Shown: piece after piece, positions 3,118 to 21,294 of the stretch
How positions within the stretch are numbered: the first letter of the stretch is position 1
Layout of the letters: each line of letters starts with the position of its first letter
NCBI GenBank assembly: GCA_016214995.1
Contig: JACRML010000025.1
Coordinates: 1-37,054 of the forward strand
DNA from: Deltaproteobacteria bacterium
Lineage (GTDB): Bacteria > Desulfobacterota > GWC2-55-46 > UBA9637
DNA length: 37,054 nucleotides
Direction of reading: 5' to 3'
Notes under the pieces: model-generated
Databases searched by the model: none
Told to the model about the DNA's origin: nothing
What the model saw: only the letters and a program-made list of their open reading frames with translations
Made by a program: the position numbers and the translations under genes

Positions 3118-3651
3118 TTAGAGACTTCGCCTATCTAAAAAGACTTTGCATCTTTCCTTATGTCCTTCTTTTGCCGACCAGCGTTTTATCTCTGCTATAT
3201 TCACTTTTTGGTCTTTTGCAACCATAAGGGCTTGTTCCAGCGCCTGAGGGTCGTTCCAGTGGTAATAGGCTGCAAGCCTGTCTTTTACAGTATCGGTAGA
3301 TGTGAGCAGGACAACCTTGCCGGATTTAGTCTTAAGTTTAGTAAGATTCTTAATGGGCTCATCTCCTATTGCCGCAGGCGGAGCAACAAATTCTATAAAA
3401 AAATGACAGTCCTTCCGGATAAAGTGCCGCGAAGTTTTCCTCTTGAAACCAAGGCCGGACATGGCAGCAGCAACTTCCTTGATTGCGGCATGGGTAATAA
3501 AATCAAGGTCGCTGGAAAGGTATTTGTTTTTCGTATAAATGGAGACGCATGCTCCGCCAACGAGAACCGCATCAATACCCTTTTCGTTAAGCTTTTCCGA
3601 GACAATCGCTGCCAGTTCGCGAATATCAATATGTCCCCAGTCAATTTTCAT
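3118..3651 (-). CDS. Nucleotidyltransferase-fold protein (possible toxin of a two-gene module)
   Basis: A 177-aa protein with the minimal nucleotidyltransferase signature VLVGGACVSIY (about 30-40) followed by SSDLDFIT, where the two Asp of DLD would bind metal. This is seen in AbiEii/MNT-type and DUF6036-like proteins. It overlaps the stop of the upstream winged-helix gene by 4 bases, so the two are coupled. Small DNA-binding protein plus nucleotidyltransferase is a common layout of toxin-antitoxin or phage-defence pairs, but many such pairs are uncharacterised. The enzyme family is fairly certain; a toxin role is inference. Confidence 0.65.
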   Translation of the reverse strand: MKIDWGHIDIRELAAIVSEKLNEKGIDAVLVGGACVSIYTKNKYLSSDLDFITHAAIKEVAAAMSGLGFKRKTSRHFIRKDCHFFIEFVAPPAAIGDEPIKNLTKLKTKSGKVVLLTSTDTVKDRLAAYYHWNDPQALEQALMVAKDQKVNIAEIKRWSAKEGHKERCKVFLDRRSL

Positions 3652-3977
3652 AATGGCTTGCCGGCTCTCCTGGGCCTTGTCCGTTTTCTGTAATAGGCTT
3701 CCTTCTCTTTTTCGGGGACAAACTCACATGCCTTGGCGAGAAATGCCTGTAATTCCTTCAAGAAAGGGTACCTCGGATTGAATGTATAAATCCGCACTTT
3801 ACCCATGAGACGGCTTGAAACAATCCCGCCGTTCTCCAGTCTTCTGAGTTGCTGCTGCATCCTGTTTACCGGTACATTGAATGTCTTTGCTATGCCGAGA
3901 GCATACCCTTCGCCGTATACAAAGAGGGTAAAAAGGATTTTTTCTATTGTGCTGTTGCCAAAAAGCGCTTCAAGCAT
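3648..3977 (-). CDS. Winged-helix DNA-binding protein (partner of the nucleotidyltransferase)
   Basis: A 109-aa protein with a winged-helix fold of the ArsR/MarR type: residues 1-75 contain IEKILFTLFVYGEGYALGIA, then a recognition-like helix VNRMQQQLRRLENGGIVSS and a beta wing KVRIYTFN. The C-terminus is basic (RKRTRPRRAGKPL). It lies directly upstream of, and overlaps by ATGA, the nucleotidyltransferase gene. It is probably the regulator or antitoxin of that pair. Upstream 'tttcaccatttaccataatttatggttttg' region has a dyad around CCATAAnTTATGG that could be its operator, though this was only judged by eye. Confidence 0.6.
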   Translation of the reverse strand: MLEALFGNSTIEKILFTLFVYGEGYALGIAKTFNVPVNRMQQQLRRLENGGIVSSRLMGKVRIYTFNPRYPFLKELQAFLAKACEFVPEKEKEAYYRKRTRPRRAGKPL

Positions 3978-4118
3978 ATTTCACCATTTACCATAATTTA
4001 TGGTTTTGTTACCAGCTTAAATGGTATGAGTTTCTTGCCGCAATGTCAATGCAAATATTGCAAGAATGCAATAATGGGGATTTTTGAATAAATAGCAACG
4101 ATCCTCAAAGCATCCCAG

Positions 4119-4278
4119 AATAGACATTGATTTTTGGGGAAACCGGCAGCTTGCCGATTCATCGCGCGTTTTTAAATACGCCCATAAATGGGCAGGCTAC
4201 AAAAATTGGGATAGACCTTTCGCTGATTATGAAATAGCTGGTTTGTAAAATAGCAAGGTTTTTAATCGCTATTTTACG
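4119..4278. repeat. Dispersed MITE-like element, copy 1
   Basis: The left flank GATTTTTGGGGAAACCGGCA (about 4129-4148) and the right hairpin GTAAAATAGC ... GCTATTTTAC (4245-4276) match the copy at 17900-18116. The interior differs: here it carries the TTGCCGATTCATCG / GCCCATAAATGGGCA core that is also at 2858-2900. Confidence 0.65.
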
Positions 4279-4466
4279 GAAAGCAATACATCGTAGGTGT
4301 CATACGGTAGAGGCGATCAACAGGAAGCTCTGGACAGGAAGCGGCGATTGCAAGGGGGAAAGATACCACCCAAAGATAAAGGCAATGATAGAAGAAATTT
4401 TAAATAAGGGCTTAAAACCCTTCTTGCTTTTTCAGTTGACTAGATGGGCAAGGCCTGTCAGGAATT

Positions 4467-4486
4467 TAATTGGGATGTGTTGTCCC
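4467..4486. repeat. 20-bp exact repeat, copy 1 (GGGACAAC motif)
   Basis: TAATTGGGATGTGTTGTCCC occurs here, just after the last peptide gene, and again at 5486-5505. A related GGGACAACTGTCCC motif lies at about 8706-8719 on the other side of the cassette. These resemble short REP-type motifs. Confidence 0.6.
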
Positions 4487-4516
4487 CATTTTAAATTAAA
4501 TTAAAGATCATAAAGA

Positions 4517-4723
4517 TCATTGACAGAAGCACCAAGTCCTGCATGTGCCGTCCGGCGAGCAATACCCACCGCAGTAACACTTAATTTCTATTGTGGGCAC
4601 TCTAATTACTCTGGCTTGCAGTTGAATTTGTGAAGTGCTAATGACACGACTTGTCTTCATGTAAGAGTAACTGCTTGTTCTGTTCAGAGAGCTTTCTGCA
4701 GTAAATGAAGGCATTTTATTCAT
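4517..4723 (-). CDS. Cassette peptide 5: small Cys-rich peptide with conserved leader
   Basis: A 68-aa peptide with the family N-terminus (MNKMPSFTAESSLNRTSS) and a short Cys-rich tail of 20 residues beginning CYCGGYC and ending WCFCQ, with six Cys. The middle is Ser/Thr/Ile-rich. It starts at 4723, 7 bases after GGAGG. It is the last gene of the cassette and 17 bases from peptide 4. The shared leader with divergent core suggests a precursor of a processed peptide. It has no signal peptide and no known domain that I recognise. Confidence 0.7.
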   Translation of the reverse strand: MNKMPSFTAESSLNRTSSYSYMKTSRVISTSQIQLQARVIRVPTIEIKCYCGGYCSPDGTCRTWCFCQ

Positions 4724-4740
4724 AGCATTTCCTCCTCATT

Positions 4741-5010
4741 TTAATCTTTTGCCTTTGAATTTGTTTTCTTGTCTTCGAAATCGCAAGATATGCTGCCATC
4801 CGGGTTGGTAGATAAGCCACCGCCGACTGCATCACACATTGCTTCAAAATACCATCTTATCCACCACGTCAAACACTTACCCCTGCAGGTTGCTCTCCTC
4901 TGCGGTAAAATACCCCCGCCTCCAGCCAGACTAGCGGAATGCCCAGCCGCCTGGTAACACTCGCTCGTCTTATAGATCGAAGCCTCTGCAGTAAATCCTG
5001 GTATCTTCAT
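4741..5010 (-). CDS. Cassette peptide 4: small Cys-containing peptide with conserved leader
   Basis: An 89-aa peptide beginning MKIPGFTAEASIYKTSECYQ. The ATG at 5010 is preferred over the GTG at 5019 because the ribosome site GGAGGTGA overlaps the GTG but sits 7 bases before the ATG. Downstream come a Gly run (AGGGGI), a Cys pair (TCRGKC), a Trp-rich segment (WWIRWYF) and a charged end rich in Asp/Lys. It is a member of the five-gene paralogous set of the cassette. Only the leader is clearly shared with the others; the core is unique, as expected for a diversifying precursor family. Confidence 0.7.
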   Translation of the reverse strand: MKIPGFTAEASIYKTSECYQAAGHSASLAGGGGILPQRRATCRGKCLTWWIRWYFEAMCDAVGGGLSTNPDGSISCDFEDKKTNSKAKD

Positions 5011-5105
5011 TTTTCTCACCTCCTTACTATTTTAAGTTTAAGTGTTTGCCTTACTATCTACCTATCCAACAACGCCAGCAATAATCACAACAAGTGCGCC
5101 ATACT

Positions 5106-5462
5106 TTAATCACAAGGGCAGGAGTCCAAGCAATCTTCTTTCTGCATGGGGTTCTTTAGCTTATTGCAGCGTGCCCGACATTGCCTGCACGCCACGTCAC
5201 CGATCCATGGAGGGACACCCCAGCCGCCTGGATCGTCACCGCCTCCAATACCGGGGCAATATGTGTACTCGCAGTTTGGACCCAAACAATAGCACTGCGG
5301 ACCGAATGGCGAATTTGGGTAAAGAGGAGATGGGACATTAATCTTAATTAGTTGCGTAACAACACCACTACATGCGATAGAGCCAGACCTGTAGACCCCT
5401 CGATAGCAAGTGCGCGACTTGGCATGAAATACCGCTTCTGCAGTGAATTCTGGCATATTCAT
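5106..5462 (-). CDS. Cassette peptide 3: Cys-rich peptide with conserved leader
   Basis: A 118-aa peptide starting MNMPEFTAEAVFHAKSR, with GGAGG 8 bases before the ATG. The C-terminal two thirds hold at least 13 Cys, including CYCLGPNCEYTYC, ACRQCRARC and the end DCLDSCPCD, separated by a Gly/Pro/Trp-rich stretch (GGGDDPGGWGVPPW). The VPPW and Gly-rich linker echoes peptide 1. No signal peptide is visible. It is either a modified-peptide precursor or a small metal- or disulfide-bonded protein; the family context favours a processed precursor. Confidence 0.7.
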   Translation of the reverse strand: MNMPEFTAEAVFHAKSRTCYRGVYRSGSIACSGVVTQLIKINVPSPLYPNSPFGPQCYCLGPNCEYTYCPGIGGGDDPGGWGVPPWIGDVACRQCRARCNKLKNPMQKEDCLDSCPCD

Positions 5463-5485
5463 TTTAGTTACCTCCTATCATCAGA

Positions 5486-5505
5486 TAATTGGGATGTGTT
5501 GTCCC
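5486..5505. repeat. 20-bp exact repeat, copy 2 (GGGACAAC motif)
   Basis: Identical to 4467-4486. It lies between peptide genes 2 and 3, just upstream of peptide 3. Confidence 0.6.
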
Positions 5506-5523
5506 TTTTTTACGCTCACATCC

Positions 5524-5565
5524 GGCGCAATGCGCTTCGCTTATTGACACCCTATTGGGTGCGCC
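5524..5565. repeat. Small inverted-repeat element between peptide genes
   Basis: GGCGCA (5524-5529) pairs with TGCGCC (5560-5565) around AATGCGCTTCGCTTATTG. This AAGCGAAGCGCATTG phrase is, from general knowledge, a widespread dispersed bacterial repeat. It may mark an insertion or an attenuating hairpin inside the operon. Confidence 0.45.
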
Positions 5566-5592
5566 TTACGCGGTAGTCAAACGACGAAGAGC

Positions 5593-5926
5593 CTACCAAC
5601 CGAACTTCGGCGTTTTCGGCGTGGGTGTGTACGCCTGCATACATTGATCATACGACTGTTGTCTTACGGGGCAACGAGCGTCTATGGGAGAGAGTCTGCA
5701 AATAGCGTTCTCATAATCCATTTGCGTCATGCAGGCAAATTTACACAATTCATAGTCCACGTCTATTCCCCCATCTACAGACCACCGATGCCCCGAATAA
5801 CTCCATCGAGCCGGATAAATTGAGTTAGCCTCCCCGAGGCAGCTTCGCAGAGAGAGAGCGTATGTAGGCAGCCGTTTTGCAGAACGATGCCTCTGCAGTA
5901 AATCCTGGCATATTCATATTGTTCAT
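5593..5926 (-). pseudogene. Cassette peptide 2: frameshifted paralogue of peptide 1
   Basis: The leader MNNMNMPGFTAEASFCKTAA starts at 5926 with AAAGGAGG upstream, but the frame stops after 32 codons (TAA near 5829). The C-terminal part continues in another frame to a TAG at 5593: DVDYELCKFAC ... RQQSYDQCMQ, closely parallel to peptide 1 (DPDYELCKMGC ... SQRSYDRCMQ). The break falls at a TC run (TCTCTCTCT, minus strand, about 5851-5860). Adding one TC unit restores a single frame of about 111 codons through AYIRSLSLRSC. So a two-base slippage event, programmed frameshift or sequencing error explains it. It lies within the duplicated block (5885-5983) shared with peptide 1. Confidence 0.8.
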
Positions 5927-5983
5927 CTCATACCTCCTTTCGTTGTTTAGTTTTAACGGTCATAATATGTCGACATCTTCGTG
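5885..5983. repeat. 99-bp direct repeat, copy 1 (duplication scar)
   Basis: Matches 6354-6452 at an offset of 469 bases with 97 of 99 identities by my count. It includes the first codons of peptide 2, its ribosome site, and a useless copy of the last ten codons plus stop of the PatG-like gene. It therefore proves tandem duplication of a unit containing the PatG-like 3' end and a peptide gene. Confidence 0.85.
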
Positions 5984-5999
5984 GGTCATTTACCACACC

Positions 6000-6395
6000 C
6001 TACCGCTTCTGTTTGTCGCAATTCTGCATGCATCTGTCATACGACCGTTGACTTTCGCGCAGGCATCTTGCTGGGTTGCGACTATCTGGGCACCAATCTT
6101 TATCCGTGTGATCCTTTGTAAGTTCGCAGCCCATTTTACACAGTTCGTAATCCGGATCCACCGTTCCCCCGCCTCCGCTTCCACCTCCACCACCTCCACC
6201 ACCTCCACCCCAAGGCGGTGGAACGACCCCCGGCCCCGCAAACAAACTTCGCATGAAGTCTTCCATTTCCGCTTTCCTCGTTTGCGGTGCGACCGCATCG
6301 CTCGGAGCAGGAGCAACAGAGAGAGTGTGATATTGCCCGGCAGCTGGATACAGCGATGCCTCTGCAGTAAATCCCGGCATATTCATATTGTTCAT
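6000..6395 (-). CDS. Cassette peptide 1: Gly-run, Cys-rich peptide with conserved leader
   Basis: A 131-aa peptide. The leader is MNNMNMPGFTAEASLYPAAG (1-20). It is followed by a charged helix-like part (EMEDFMRSLFAG), a PPPW motif and a poly-Gly linker of 10 G, S, 4 G (about 63-77). The Cys-rich tail has C-x3-C spacing: ELCKMGC, DWC, ARC, DRCMQNC. Two C-x3-C pairs flanking the tail suggest a small disulfide or metal fold. The start at 6395 follows AAAGGAGG and lies 27 bases after the PatG-like stop. It is the first precursor-like gene after the processing genes and the parent or sister of frameshifted peptide 2. Confidence 0.75.
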   Translation of the reverse strand: MNNMNMPGFTAEASLYPAAGQYHTLSVAPAPSDAVAPQTRKAEMEDFMRSLFAGPGVVPPPWGGGGGGGGGGSGGGGTVDPDYELCKMGCELTKDHTDKDWCPDSRNPARCLRESQRSYDRCMQNCDKQKR

Positions 6396-6452
6396 TTCAT
6401 ACCTCCTTTCGTTGTTTAGTTTTAACGGTCATAATATGTCGACATCTTCGTG
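6354..6452. repeat. 99-bp direct repeat, copy 2 (functional location)
   Basis: Spans the 3' end of the PatG-like gene (6422-6452), the ribosome site and the first codons of peptide 1. It is repeated at 5885-5983. Confidence 0.85.
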
Positions 6453-7345
6453 ACCAGGAACGGAAACTCCTCGGTCACATCCACACGGACAAAGAACTTT
6501 TCGGTGAAATCCGTGTTCCGGTTGGTGTAGGAAAATATCGCCTCGACGATTTTGCGGGTGGCGCTCAACGGCGAGGGCCGCGTCTCAACCCCGCTCAGCG
6601 AAAAGTTCCGCGCAAATTCTTCGGCTGCCTTGGCATAGATGGCCGGATACCGTACAGACAGATAGTTCAGTGCCCGATGCTCATCCGTCGCGCCAGCGTT
6701 GTCGGTCAGTTGCATGATCCTGTCGAACACTTCCTCAGCCGCTGGGCTAAACTGCTCGGCAGCCGTCTTCTCTGGTTTGGGGATGGCTTTGATGAGCGCA
6801 TTGCGGTCGAAGGAATAAATCTGGTCGAACGCAACAATCGGAACCATGAGCCCGTTGCATAGCTCTGGTGGAGCGATGGGGCCTCTTAACCCAACCACCA
6901 CATCGATGTCATTGGGGCTAGGCGCTGAGCGAATGGCTTCCACTAAACGCTCGAAGTCGACTGGGTCGCGCGGTTGCAGGATATACGTTTCCAGCCCCTG
7001 AATGCTCAGAACCAAGCACATCTGGCGTACTAGATAACGGTTCTCGCGTTTTGACAAGACGGCATGAAATACCTGTTGATCAGTCTTTCCAGCGGTTTCA
7101 GACCGACCCGCAACCTGGGCAAACTCCTTCTCCACCGATAAGCGCGGAAAACGCGCCTCAATTCGGCCTAAGGCATAGACGTAGGACATGGGCATAGAAG
7201 CCGTCCCGCCTGCGCAAGTCGGGCAGGATGCCTCCTCAGCCGGCGGGGACATGGCAACATCCTCTTGAGATGGCGTAATCGCGGTGACATCATGGTCAGA
7301 CGCAGCTTGTTTAGCTAATTGTTGTTTCGCTTCGTTTTGTTCCAT
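6422..7345 (-). CDS. Stand-alone PatG C-terminal-like protein (cyanobactin PatA/PatG family)
   Basis: A 307-aa cytoplasmic protein with no protease domain. Residues 1-50 are a flexible, Pro/Ala/Glu-rich tail with CPTC (41-44). From about 55 to the end it follows the conserved C-terminal region of PatA/PatG-type cyanobactin maturation proteases: SYVYALGRIEARFP, GLETYILQPRDP, GLRGPIAPPELCNGL, VAFDQIYSFD, DNAGATDEHRALNYL, then the ending EEFPFLVTKM near STYYDR. In PatG this region is fused to the protease; here it is a separate gene, with the subtilase two genes upstream. Its biochemical role is unknown even in PatG. Ribosome site AGGAGG precedes the ATG at 7345. Base composition is visibly more GC-rich than the neighbouring housekeeping genes, suggesting transfer. 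Family recognition rests on memory of the conserved motifs. Confidence 0.8.
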   Translation of the reverse strand: MEQNEAKQQLAKQAASDHDVTAITPSQEDVAMSPPAEEASCPTCAGGTASMPMSYVYALGRIEARFPRLSVEKEFAQVAGRSETAGKTDQQVFHAVLSKRENRYLVRQMCLVLSIQGLETYILQPRDPVDFERLVEAIRSAPSPNDIDVVVGLRGPIAPPELCNGLMVPIVAFDQIYSFDRNALIKAIPKPEKTAAEQFSPAAEEVFDRIMQLTDNAGATDEHRALNYLSVRYPAIYAKAAEEFARNFSLSGVETRPSPLSATRKIVEAIFSYTNRNTDFTEKFFVRVDVTEEFPFLVTKMSTYYDR

Positions 7346-7377
7346 AGTTACCTCCTGATAAGTCGGATTCGTGTTGG

Positions 7378-7596
7378 TTATTTTGGGTGCCTACCCGTGA
7401 ACACGAGCCAACGGTTAAGCATGGCGGCGCGTTGTTCGCACCCACTACAAGGTCTGATTCCAAAAGCTGATGTGACTCGTTTGACGACAGTACCAAGACC
7501 CACATCTTCATCAAGGATGAATCCTGGAAGGCGCACTCGGTGTGGCAGAGAGTCCTGACCCCCTGTCTCAACGTCTTTGGCCTCCTCTTCTTTCAT
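7378..7596 (-). CDS. 72-aa CxxC protein of the PatA/PatG-like cassette
   Basis: A short conserved-looking protein: RLPGFILDEDVGLG (22-35), VVKRVTSAFGIRPCSGC (with a CxxC) and EQRAAMLNRWLVFTG at the end. The N-terminus is acidic and variable. I recall similar GF-x-x-DEDVGLG small proteins in other genomes as hypothetical, without a known function. The ribosome site GGAGG lies inside the last codons of the protease gene (AGG AGG TAA), so the genes are coupled; the PatG-like gene follows after 32 bases. It could be a precursor, a metal-binding chaperone or a peptide-recognition partner; nothing in the sequence decides. Confidence 0.65.
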   Translation of the reverse strand: MKEEEAKDVETGGQDSLPHRVRLPGFILDEDVGLGTVVKRVTSAFGIRPCSGCEQRAAMLNRWLVFTGRHPK

Positions 7597-7600
7597 AGAC

Positions 7601-8476
7601 TTACCTCCTTATCTGAGCTGTGCTCATGAATTGATAGGCCGCCCAAGCGTTCAACAACGGCGGCACCACCGTCGTTCGTCTGGGCGCATACGCTTGTGTG
7701 ACGGCAAATTTCACTTGCGCCGCAGTCGCTGCTGGAAATGCTGACCACAACAACGCAATGGCTCCGGTCACAAGAGGGGTTGCCACACTGGTTCCTCCCA
7801 TCGTGAGGGGTTTGCCCACGGCGCCGAGGCTGGTAATGTCCTGACCCGGGGCACTCAAACCTCGCCTCCCAATAGAGCTTCCCAGATTCGACTCGTTCAT
7901 CGGTCTTCCTCGCAGGTCACAAGCAACCACTGGAATGACCCACGAGTGCCGCGTGATGGCAGTACTACCGAGCGTTCCTTGATTGCCTGCTGCTGCGACA
8001 ATAATGACTCCGCGCTTAGTGGCATGATCCAGCACTTGCTCTAACTCACGTTCGCCTTTTGACGAGGGTTGTGCCAGAGCAAGGCTCAAATTGATGCAGC
8101 GCGCACCAGCCTCGATACACTCGATAATCGCCGCTGCCAATTCTTGGGGGGTCGCACTCGGTATCTGCGTATTCTCTACGGTTGTCTCAGTAAAGACAGG
8201 ACGTATCAGCAAAGTGCAATCTGGGCAGATAGCTGGAGCGGAAGAATTCCGCTTTGTGCTTAAAATCCCGGCTATGAATGTTCCATGCAAACAAGCCGTA
8301 CTGTTGGCCTGAGTACAGGCACCGCTCCCGTTTCCAGGGATCTCACGGATATGTTGGCTGGCAAGCTCTGGATGGTTCATAGCCACAGGTCCATCAATGA
8401 GCCCGATTATCACGTCAGGCCTACCGCTAATGCGTTTTATCAACGGCGTGAGTCCAATCAAGTCTAATGGTGTCAT
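7601..8476 (-). CDS. PatA-like cytoplasmic subtilisin-family (S8) protease
   Basis: A 291-aa serine protease made of the S8 domain only, with no signal peptide or propeptide, so it acts in the cytoplasm. The catalytic triad is visible: Asp28 in GLIDGPV, His64 in HGTFIAG, Ser230 in GGTSVATP, with oxyanion Asn165 in AAAGNQG. The GxxDGPV and HPELA pattern, and CPDCTLLIRPVF, match the PatA/PatG protease branch that cleaves cyanobactin leader peptides. It is the first gene of the cassette and the natural candidate for cutting the five M-P-x-F-T-A-E peptides. The ribosome site AAGGAA lies in one arm of a 16-base palindrome (8482-8497), which may limit translation. Its length equals PatA's protease domain without the C-terminal region, which here is encoded separately. 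Confidence 0.88.
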   Translation of the reverse strand: MTPLDLIGLTPLIKRISGRPDVIIGLIDGPVAMNHPELASQHIREIPGNGSGACTQANSTACLHGTFIAGILSTKRNSSAPAICPDCTLLIRPVFTETTVENTQIPSATPQELAAAIIECIEAGARCINLSLALAQPSSKGERELEQVLDHATKRGVIIVAAAGNQGTLGSTAITRHSWVIPVVACDLRGRPMNESNLGSSIGRRGLSAPGQDITSLGAVGKPLTMGGTSVATPLVTGAIALLWSAFPAATAAQVKFAVTQAYAPRRTTVVPPLLNAWAAYQFMSTAQIRR

Positions 8477-8481
8477 AAAGT

Positions 8482-8497
8482 TTCCTTAGCTAAGGAA
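8482..8497. promoter_or_regulatory. Perfect 16-bp palindrome covering the protease ribosome site
   Basis: TTCCTTAGCTAAGGAA reads the same on both strands. On the minus strand its right half (AAGGAA) is the Shine-Dalgarno sequence, 5 bases before the protease ATG. In RNA, TTCCTT can pair with AAGGAA around a 4-base loop, masking the ribosome site; as DNA it could be an operator. Confidence 0.6.
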
Positions 8498-8513
8498 GTG
8501 AGCAGCTTAACGC

Positions 8514-8598
8514 GGGGCTGAGCCGCCGCGAAGCGGTCGGTTTCGTGCCCCTGGTTCTCCCGTAGCATAGCGGAGGGAAGGGGCACCGGCTCAGCCCC
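8514..8598. repeat. Large GC-rich nested hairpin upstream of the cassette
   Basis: GGGGCTGAGCCG (8514-8525) pairs perfectly with CGGCTCAGCCCC (8587-8598); inside, GTGCCCCT (8545-8552) pairs with AGGGGCAC (8579-8586). A further small hairpin CCGC/GCGG lies near 8525-8537. It is a cruciform-like element in the leader of the peptide cassette, possibly REP-type or regulatory. Confidence 0.65.
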
Positions 8599-8762
8599 AG
8601 CGTTCTCACTGAGCGGAGCGAAGGGAAAACCAGTTATTATCTGAACGAGGCTAATCCATTAATACCGAATTAGGAATATTAGTCCCGAATAAAAAAACAA
8701 TAACCGGGACAACTGTCCCCTTACCCCCAACATATTTCTCTTGGATTTCCTTCGCAAAACAA

Positions 8763-8799
8763 AAACGGCTTTTCCGCATCGCTGCAAGAAAAGCCGTTT
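8763..8799 (-). terminator. Rho-independent terminator after cysS
   Basis: Perfect 11-bp stem AAACGGCTTTT (8763-8773) / AAAAGCCGTTT (8789-8799). On the minus strand it is followed by TTGTTTTG, a T-rich tail. It lies downstream of cysS and separates it from the peptide cassette, which therefore needs its own promoter between about 8500 and 8760. Confidence 0.75.
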
Positions 8800-8830
8800 G
8801 ATTAAGACGCTATCAATAATAGCGTTATAG

Positions 8831-8850
8831 TTGAGTTGAGTTGAGTTGAA
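8831..8850. repeat. Short TTGAG tandem repeat
   Basis: Nearly four head-to-tail copies of the 5-mer TTGAG between cysS and the terminator hairpin. The rest of 8800-8965 shows no gene. Confidence 0.6.
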
Positions 8851-8965
8851 GGATTCGTGCCATTTTAGAACGCCTCGCAAACTACTCTCTTAACCCTATA
8901 CTGCTTGGCCTTTTATTATATTATACCGCTTTTGTCAAGGGTTTTTTCAAGGAAAATTTTTTAGA

Positions 8966-11349: not shown

Positions 11350-12389
11350 GACTCATAAATCATGTTACCGGAATATCTCCCTAAAAGGAGGGGGTATCCG
11401 GTTATGAGTCCTGTATCTAAAAGAGAATATCTGGAGGCTGTTCAAAAAGGCTCAAGGTTATTCTGCCTCTCTGGATGCCGGGTTATGCCCAAATTTACGG
11501 CGAGCTTCCTAAAGAGGTAGTAAATGCCCTGCTGTCCATATCTCCTGCAACTATTGACAGGTTCCTTAAACCGGTTCGTGTCAGATATAAAGGTCGCGGC
11601 AGGGCTACGACTAAGCCCGGGACTCTATTAAGAAAACAGATACCGATTAAAACAAACCAATGGGATGAATCACGACCCGGCTTTCTTGAAGCCGATACCG
11701 TTGCCCATTGCGGCGAGTCCTTATCAGGTATGTTTGTCTATACCGTAGACTGCGTAGACATAGCCACAGGGTGGACTGAACAAAGGGCTGTATGGGGCAA
11801 GGGCGAACATGGTGTGATGGCACAGATACATGACATTGAAAAGAAGCTCCCTTTTCCCTTGCTCGGCTTTGATTCAGATAACGGCTCTGAGTTCTTAAAT
11901 TATCACCTCCTCAGGCATTTTACTGAAAGAAAAAGGCCTGTTCAGTTTACCCGAAGCAGGGCTTACCATAAGGATGATAACGCTCATATAGAGCAGAAAA
12001 ACTGGACTCATGTAAGACAGTGGCTCGGTTATCATCGTCTTGATAATGAAGATGTCGTGCCTCTTCTGAATGAACTCTATACCAATGAATGGAGGCTTTT
12101 TCATAATTTCTTCTGTCCTTCTGTTAAACTTATTGCAAAACAAAGAATTGCTTCAAAGACGATAAAACGCTATGATAATCCAAAAACACCTTTTCAGAGG
12201 GTTATGGAGTCTCCTCATATCCCTGAGAATGTTAAACATAATCTCAAGGAACAATCCCTTTCTCTTAATCCTTTTCTTTTGAGAAAGGCTATGGAAATAA
12301 GACTTAAAAAGGTGTTTGAGCTTTGTTATAAACCTAAATTATGATAACTCTGCATCTCATTATCTCTCGGTAACATTTTCTAATGAGTC
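11350..12389 (+). mobile_element. Insertion sequence remnant with DDE/rve transposase
   Basis: The left end starts GACTCATAAATCATGTTACC (11350-11369) and the right end, read on the minus strand from 12389, starts GACTCATTAGAAAATGTTAC, giving imperfect terminal inverted repeats of about 20 bases. Between them lies a deleted transposase gene. I see no clear target duplication (TCGTT outside the left end, TCGCT outside the right is the nearest). The element is about 1.04 kb and likely non-autonomous. Confidence 0.7.
11404..12344 (+). pseudogene. Integrase-type transposase, internal deletion and frame change
   Basis: The true start MSPVSKREYLEAVQ at 11404 follows AGGAGGGGG but stops within about 25 codons. 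The main frame resumes within the overlapping bases as CSKRLKVILPLWMPGYAQIY and runs to 12344. In related elements, from memory, an HTH segment of roughly 100 codons lies between these two blocks, so a deletion has fused them out of frame. The catalytic rve domain is complete: Asp in FLEADTVAHCG, Asp in GFDSDNGSEF and Glu in NAHIEQKNW. The longest uninterrupted frame starts at an internal ATG (11475) and lacks the DNA-binding part. It is probably inactive. Confidence 0.75.
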
Positions 12390-20267: not shown

Positions 20268-20930
20268 CTAATCCCCAACACCCTCCTGCATATCCATAAC
20301 CATCTGCCGCACATTTTTCACAAAAAACTTTTTAATACCCTTCCACTCTGGTTTTTCCCTTCCGCAATATTGCGGGTCAGGGTCTATATCTGCGTCTGTA
20401 AAGTATATGATTGCTTTTCCGATATTAACAGGATTGAGTCTGTCAGCGCCATATCTTTGAATCATGTTTTCGGCAATCTTTCGGAAGGGAGTATCCTTGA
20501 GAATAAAATAGAGGTCAATAAAGCCCCTTTTAGCCCCTCTCTGTGTGATAGCCATTATCTTCATGGCTGCGATATCTATTATTCCGGCAATATCAATGCC
20601 TTTCCAAAGAAGCCTTTTATCAAGAAATGGATAGGGATAATGAAGCATGGAAACCTTCACTTCATTAACCATTGCAGTCAAAGCGCCTTCTGTTTCCTGC
20701 TGGATAATTGGTTTTAATCCTGCTTTTTGAAATTCTCTGTAGAGCGCATCTGTTGAAAATGATTTTTCCGAAAAGAAATCCAAATCAACTGATATTCTGT
20801 GTCCGATTTGCAGCGCAAGCGCAGTGCCACCTGCTAATACAAAATTATATTTATGGGTAATGCCTTTTAAAACACCTAAAAGTTTTTGTCCCTGAGGCAA
20901 TAAGCATTCAGTGTGCATATTTATAGCCAA
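20268..20930 (-). CDS. AbiEii/AbiGii-type nucleotidyltransferase toxin
   Basis: A 220-aa nucleotidyltransferase-fold protein. The motif GGTALALQIGH followed by SVDLDFFSEKSF (about 33-55) is the GG[ST]-x9-DxD core of AbiEii toxins; later LLWKGIDIAGIIDIAAMKIMAI and GAKRGFIDLYFIL are typical family blocks. It overlaps the upstream gene by 23 bases. The TTG at 20930 is supported by GGAG 8 bases before it; the ATG at 20918 is an alternative. Together with the upstream DUF6922-like gene it forms a probable toxin-antitoxin or abortive infection module. Confidence 0.82.
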   Translation of the reverse strand: MAINMHTECLLPQGQKLLGVLKGITHKYNFVLAGGTALALQIGHRISVDLDFFSEKSFSTDALYREFQKAGLKPIIQQETEGALTAMVNEVKVSMLHYPYPFLDKRLLWKGIDIAGIIDIAAMKIMAITQRGAKRGFIDLYFILKDTPFRKIAENMIQRYGADRLNPVNIGKAIIYFTDADIDPDPQYCGREKPEWKGIKKFFVKNVRQMVMDMQEGVGD

Positions 20931-21294
20931 ACCATATTCTCCAAAAGCTCTTAGACCTCTCGGATACTTTTCTGCTGGATTCGCAGACTTCTATGATGAG
21001 CCTTGTCGGATATATCCTCTGTAACCACTGGACAGCATCCATGCCGCCCATCTCCAAAACCTTTTCTATAATATATCGGGCATTTTTTTTAATGCCAATG
21101 CCAGACGGCTCTGCATCCCAGAATAGCGAGAAAAATTTATCAGGAATTTTCTTTTCTGCGGCAAATTCTTGCACCTTTTGCATTACCTGCGTATCAGAGG
21201 CAGGGCCTAAATATTTATGCACCACTTTTCCGCCTTGACGGTATGCATGATACGCATACTCTCTGCCGCTAATCTTTTTAATAAGAATTGCCAT
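20908..21294 (-). CDS. DUF6922-like partner (putative antitoxin) of the AbiEii protein
   Basis: A 128-aa protein. The first 45 residues (MAILIKKISGREYAYHAYRQ, GGKVVHKYLG) look like the short beta domain seen at the start of some transposase or antitoxin proteins. The second part follows the DUF6922 pattern: FFSLFWDAEPSGIGIKKN, YIIEKVLEMGGMDAVQWL and ESSRKVSERSKSFW. Such proteins often precede AbiEii-type genes, supporting an antitoxin role. The two-part layout may be a fusion of a DUF6922 domain to an N-terminal domain. The family name is from memory and the role is inferred. Confidence 0.65.
   Translation of the reverse strand: MAILIKKISGREYAYHAYRQGGKVVHKYLGPASDTQVMQKVQEFAAEKKIPDKFFSLFWDAEPSGIGIKKNARYIIEKVLEMGGMDAVQWLQRIYPTRLIIEVCESSRKVSERSKSFWRIWFGYKYAH

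Follow-up and report, generated by a model that had tools for sequence, protein, structure and literature searches.

Cyanobactin precursors are cut after G(L/V)E(A/P)S by the protease PatA (PMC10885120), and all cyanobactin pathways that had been characterised by 2014 contain a PatG/PatA domain of unknown function (DUF), with a novel fold and a role that was left open (PMC4259220). Subtilisin-family proteases also remove lanthipeptide leaders, as described for NisP, ElxP and AmyP, of which ElxP is cytoplasmic (PMC10885120). Here we describe a gene cassette in a 37,054-nucleotide stretch of a Deltaproteobacteria bacterium (assembly GCA_016214995.1, contig JACRML010000025.1; the whole stretch is called the window below), in which a PatA-like protease and a PatG-type domain are encoded by separate genes followed by five small genes. 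The analysis points to a mobile precursor-processing system with the logic of ribosomally synthesised and post-translationally modified peptides (RiPPs), best viewed as a relative of cyanobactin PatA in split, free-standing form that would make disulfide-rich peptides; we give this reading a probability of about 0.7.

The cassette runs on the minus strand from 8476 to 4517, in the order protease, CxxC gene, PatG gene and leader-bearing small genes, at the place where the initial annotation had put it. Its features are:

7601..8476, minus strand: PatA-like S8 subtilase, 291 aa (Peptidase_S8, 1.3e-26)
7378..7596, minus strand: CxxC protein, 72 aa (consensus RLPGFxxDEEIGLGDVIKRxTxxxGIKPCGGCxxRAAALNRW)
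6422..7345, minus strand: PatG_D/PatG_C protein of 307 aa, a free-standing gene for the cyanobactin DUF (PF18047, 1.4e-32; PF18065, 1.1e-35)
6000..6395, minus strand: putative precursor 1, 131 aa, with a Gly-rich linker and 6 Cys in the core (leader profile 3.4e-14; Shine-Dalgarno AAAGGAGG)
5593..5926, minus strand: putative precursor 2, frameshifted (leader profile match)
5106..5462, minus strand: putative precursor 3, 118 aa, 12 Cys (leader profile match)
4741..5010, minus strand: putative precursor 4, 89 aa, leader ending in ILPQ, 4 Cys in the core (leader profile 5.3e-18)
4517..4723, minus strand: putative precursor 5, 68 aa, 6 Cys in the core (leader profile 1.4e-5)
6354..6452, minus strand: 99-nt direct repeat, copy 1, covering the PatG gene end and the start of precursor 1
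5885..5983, minus strand: 99-nt direct repeat, copy 2, with the PatG 3' end, spacer, ribosome site and leader

The small genes begin with MPGFTAEAS or a close variant (leader profile E-values from 5e-18 to 1e-5), and an AGGAGG-type strong Shine-Dalgarno sequence precedes all five starts. Over the whole 1.98-Mb genome, the leader profile has no match beyond these five places. Five leader blocks had been annotated and are present; however, the second gene is frameshifted, and the fourth most likely starts at 5010, behind AGGAGG, rather than at 5019 as first given. The leader frame of precursor 2 meets a stop after 33 aa (5926-5825), and an IYPA (VxPQ-like) motif and a Cys core stand in another frame that ends at 5593, so that the gene appears to be either a pseudogene or the product of an assembly error. 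The two copies of the 99-nt repeat are 98% identical, which shows an apparently recent duplication of the PatG gene end, spacer and leader together. A 27-nt direct repeat (93%), TAATTGGGATGTGTTGTCCC, lies at 4467-4493 and 5486-5512 and flanks part of the small-gene array.

A profile of the leader collected 161 small genes from 66 loci, and 160 of them are on the strand of the PatG gene, far beyond chance. The consensus reads (M/I/L)PGFTAEASLY(K/R)(T/S)xxxY, followed by VxP(Q/A) some 27 residues past FTAE. The shared leader, which the initial annotation had limited to 12-16 residues, instead covers approximately 35-40 and is closed by this second motif. VxPQ was counted 93 times, whereas shuffled sequences would give 5.6, and its distance from the first motif is 25-32 residues in 92 of the 93 cases. 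The motif also separates two compositions: in the 93 proteins that carry it, only 14 Cys (0.4%) precede it and 722 (11.8%) follow it. Inside one locus, the median identity is 0.45 for leaders and 0.23 for cores, the latter close to that of shuffled cores (0.22). A conserved leader and a variable core are found next to processing genes, an arrangement shared with RiPPs in the broad sense. Certain cores are shared between phyla; for instance, the core of precursor 3 in the window has a relative in a Methylococcaceae bin (L044). The small genes have no family in Pfam or NCBIfam. In the actinobacterial loci L063, L069, L074, L077, L078 and L084 the leader is xxPTATAEASLYRT or close to it, and the proteins continue for 250-300 aa past the leader, rich in CCPPGxxCC-type repeats.

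The number of Cys is even in 135 of 139 cores, and in 110 of 114 once similar cores are removed; two of the four odd cores appear, by eye, to be frameshifted. As controls, other residues are even in near half to two thirds of cases, and the Cys count is even in 70% of background open reading frames that hold four or more Cys. The even counts therefore argue, indirectly, for Cys-Cys pairing in the cores, suggesting disulfides.

Leader genes track the PatG gene. Among 120 genomes of the family of one Nitrosovibrio, they were found in all 16 genomes with PatG_C and in one of the 104 without it (Fisher p = 5e-19, a value whose true weight is smaller because the genomes share ancestry), a positive outcome of the co-occurrence check proposed in the initial annotation. 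Small genes lacking the protease/PatG-like pair, which it had counted as evidence against a processing system, are nearly absent between genomes (1/104), but within carriers they do occur far from the cassette, in several genomes of this family. The single leader-only genome (L116; G342 contig C13:18325-18438) encodes a peptide that appears intact, and the gene is perhaps a relic or the sign of a missing contig. The orphan leader genes of Nitrosospira-type genomes (L099-L118) keep a constant place in related genomes, such as beside dnaE (L099, L105 and L107), and a cation P-type ATPase adjoins them in L103 and L108. A functional link with these neighbours was considered and rejected, as they differ from place to place (dnaE, P-type ATPase and others), which suggests an incidental association. 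Regarding cyanobacteria, one of 22 with PatG_C has the split form, with five leader matches, and the leader profile had no match in the 21 without it.

The subtilase has the catalytic residues D28, H64, N165 and S230 that had been assigned to it; all 74 homologues share D, H and S, and N is kept in 72/74. The catalytic domain begins close to the N-terminal end (D28), and inspection of the sequence revealed neither an obvious signal peptide nor an obvious prodomain. Its proposed PatA affinity was confirmed by profile comparison with the PDB, where the best solved relatives are PatA proteases (4h6w, 6e-50; 3zxx, 1e-47); a canonical subtilase (2e-33) and then PatG (6e-25) rank behind them. The match of the window protease to TIGR03895 reaches 105 bits, below the cut-off of 421. 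A PatA-type S8 protease, as in cyanobactin clusters, is thus part of the cassette. The spacing between D and H is 36 residues in 53 of the 74 homologues (range 30-42), which may be too short to accommodate the macrocyclase insertion of PatG.

The Pfam matches listed above bear out the annotation of a separate PatG C-terminal-like protein. Its profile matches the PatG-DUF structure 4uvq (6.6e-10), which is also the only confident fold match of its AlphaFold model (predicted local distance difference test score 87; Foldseek 4e-14, template modelling scores 0.63/0.72). The cassette therefore has the C-terminal DUF of cyanobactin PatG/PatA but not its fusion to a protease, since the two are separate genes in the window and in the surveyed loci. 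A quick tree places the split protease and the split DUF each in a clade apart from the mostly fused cyanobacterial PatA/PatG. On a plasmid of Photobacterium sp. GJ3 (L008, 4290-12996), two distant PatG-like genes lie amid genes that by eye resemble those of an extracellular contractile injection system (AAA ATPase, DUF4157-like core protein and tail-collar-like protein), a context in which the PatG domain may act independently of peptide clusters.

The CxxC gene sits between the protease and the PatG gene in 62 of 86 loci, and both Cys of the motif are kept in 59 of 61 CxxC proteins. No family for it was found in Pfam, NCBIfam or PADLOC, and no PDB relative by sequence or by fold. In its structural model (moderate confidence) the CxxC motif opens a helix, as it does in thioredoxin-like proteins. 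The PGF common to this protein and the leader led us to consider a relationship, but the profile comparison was not significant (5.8% probability).

One scan of 84,980 genomes gave 80 loci, and 107 relatives were gathered in all. The loci of the scan belong to Pseudomonadota, Acidobacteriota, Actinomycetota, Nitrospirota, Planctomycetota, Chloroflexota, Bacteroidota, Cyanobacteriota and Thermodesulfobacteriota and also to archaea, the archaeal and several other loci being genome bins in which stray contigs are possible. The system had been placed outside cyanobacteria; most loci are indeed from other phyla, but a few cyanobacteria carry the split form, as do archaeal bins. Considering 86 loci, in some of which the contig ends before every gene could show, the protease is just upstream of the PatG gene in 73, and a leader gene follows the PatG gene within 5 kb in 64 and within 150 bp in 56. 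Upstream protease, intervening CxxC gene and downstream leader genes occur together in 45. Clustering of the remaining neighbours revealed no further gene at a constant place beside the cassette, including any transporter, YcaO or secretion gene.

The nearest proteins are from Mesorhizobium, Sinorhizobium and Streptomyces, all on plasmids, and from Candidatus Brocadia, and phyla are intermixed in the PatG-like tree. The PatG_C domain is absent from all other 296 genomes sampled from the window phylum. In a sister species of the same genus (G173; cysteinyl-tRNA synthetase 97% identical), the flanks of the insertion site are ~94-95% identical and the following segment is missing:

3329..8939, no strand assigned: segment holding the cassette, replaced by ~140 bp in the sister species

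The G+C content is ~0.55 in the protease and PatG genes and ~0.42 around them. Horizontal gain of the cassette in the window genome is the simplest reading of these data, loss of the segment in the sister species being a possible alternative. Nucleotidyltransferase-like gene pairs resembling AbiE-type toxin-antitoxin systems were noted by eye at 3118-3977, straddling one edge of the inserted segment, and at 20268-21294, and a transposase/integrase-like gene (by eye) lies at 11475-12344, ~3 kb from the cassette. A phage origin was discarded after no relatives turned up among phage records (50,697) or viral contigs, and so was a defence system, for which there were only generic subtilase/IetS matches and none for the other cassette genes.

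The likeness to cyanobactin PatA/PatG lies in the S8 domain, the sequence and fold of the DUF and the logic of leader removal. In contrast to cyanobactins, the cassette has no YcaO or oxidase and apparently no macrocyclase, its protease and DUF are separate genes in separate clades, and its distribution extends over many phyla. Its precursors are also different: leader and paired-Cys cores do not correspond to a PatE-type precursor with a short core and an AYDG-type C-terminal recognition sequence. The absence of a cyclodehydratase noted initially extends to the genome, with no YcaO in the window genome (82% complete) or in 17 of 26 other genomes and no YcaO-like recurring neighbour, so the YcaO in or near the cluster that marks thiazole/oxazole-modified microcins is lacking. 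In prochlorosins (ProcA/ProcM), as here, one processing set serves a conserved leader with hypervariable cores, and some precursors are encoded far away; the cassette differs in having no lanthionine synthetase, an S8 protease in place of the transporter C39 domain, and an unrelated leader. Unlike the loci of NisP, ElxP and AmyP, it has no lanthipeptide synthetase, its protease is nearest to PatA, and its usual partners are the DUF and the CxxC protein. The central proposal of the initial annotation, a constant leader with a variable Cys-rich core beside a PatA-type protease and distinct from cyanobactins, was upheld in every sequence test that was run.

Taking together what can be read from the genomes, namely the operon and its conservation, the leader/core division, Cys parity, co-occurrence, the split from cyanobactins and horizontal transfer, we suggest the following mechanism. 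The small genes, in the operon or scattered elsewhere in some genomes, would encode precursors made of a two-part leader and an unrelated core. Recognition of the leader most likely falls to the PatG_D/C protein, and the PatA-like protease would remove the leader in the cytoplasm, at or near VxPQ. This site seems likelier than one after AEAS because VxPQ lies at a fixed distance and coincides with the boundary in Cys content, although a first cut after AEAS may be an extra step. The cores would become disulfide-rich peptides, possibly with the aid of the CxxC protein in thiol-disulfide exchange, and the product would be exported and active. A single enzyme set could serve many cores, and new ones may arise when a leader and its upstream DNA duplicate. 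That these loci represent a new and widespread ribosomal peptide class, in bacteria and archaea and on plasmids, with a two-motif leader read by a free-standing DUF and removed by a PatA-like protease, and with a CxxC factor that oxidises many different paired-Cys cores, is a tentative extension that could well prove too broad.

Several observations weigh against the proposed processing system. When the patellamide PatG-DUF was examined in the only published test, it did not seem to bind its precursor (PMC4259220). About 13 loci have no upstream S8 protease (it is downstream in three and broken in two), and in 20 the profile detects no leader gene, in part because the leaders of actinobacteria and archaea have diverged. 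Some of the actinobacterial "precursors" are 250-300-aa Cys-rich proteins, a poor fit to small peptides. Given a reducing cytoplasm and the lack of a recurrent transporter, oxidation and export of the cores are left unexplained.

The best surviving alternative takes the N-terminal block as a targeting signal, for a secretion machine or the surface, and the protease/DUF as a quality-control or release protease. The long actinobacterial proteins and the Photobacterium PatG-like pair amid injection-system-like genes would suit it, but no secretion gene recurs next to the cassette, the protease falls within the PatA branch of leader proteases and leader genes are tied to the PatG gene; we consider it unlikely, although targeting and leader removal can coexist. 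Also improbable, and more so, is that the cores are metal-binding (metallothionein-like) proteins whose turnover or release is merely governed by leader and protease. They are Cys-rich, and besides the P-type ATPase next to orphan leader genes, heavy-metal RND-like genes (by eye) occur near the cassette in some Nitrosospira; these neighbours, however, are limited to a few related genomes, no single metal motif is common to the cores, no metallothionein family matches, and strict even parity is what Cys-Cys pairs would produce, whereas metal sites would not be expected to. That the cassette is an ordinary cyanobactin-type cluster minus its heterocyclase, as its PatA-like protease, its PatG-DUF and the resemblance of AEAS to the PatA site G(L/V)E(A/P)S (PMC10885120) might suggest, is hardly credible, given that the split genes form their own clade, that the precursors are different and never occur with fused PatA/PatG alone, that YcaO is lacking in the window genome and in 17 of 26 others, the nine with YcaO all being actinobacteria, and that the D-H spacing of 36 may be too short for the PatG insertion.

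The separate protein families are known and the logic is that of RiPPs, but no description of the leader sequence or gene set was found in the open literature (subscription papers lay outside coverage), so the system, its leader and its precursors appear to be undescribed there. If the proposed processing system is real, soil, nitrifying and methane-oxidising microbes would hold a large family of natural peptides rich in disulfides that is still unmined, and one enzyme set would accept very different cores. It would also offer a simpler setting for the open role of the PatG/PatA DUF, which here stands alone, usually near substrates with a clear leader.

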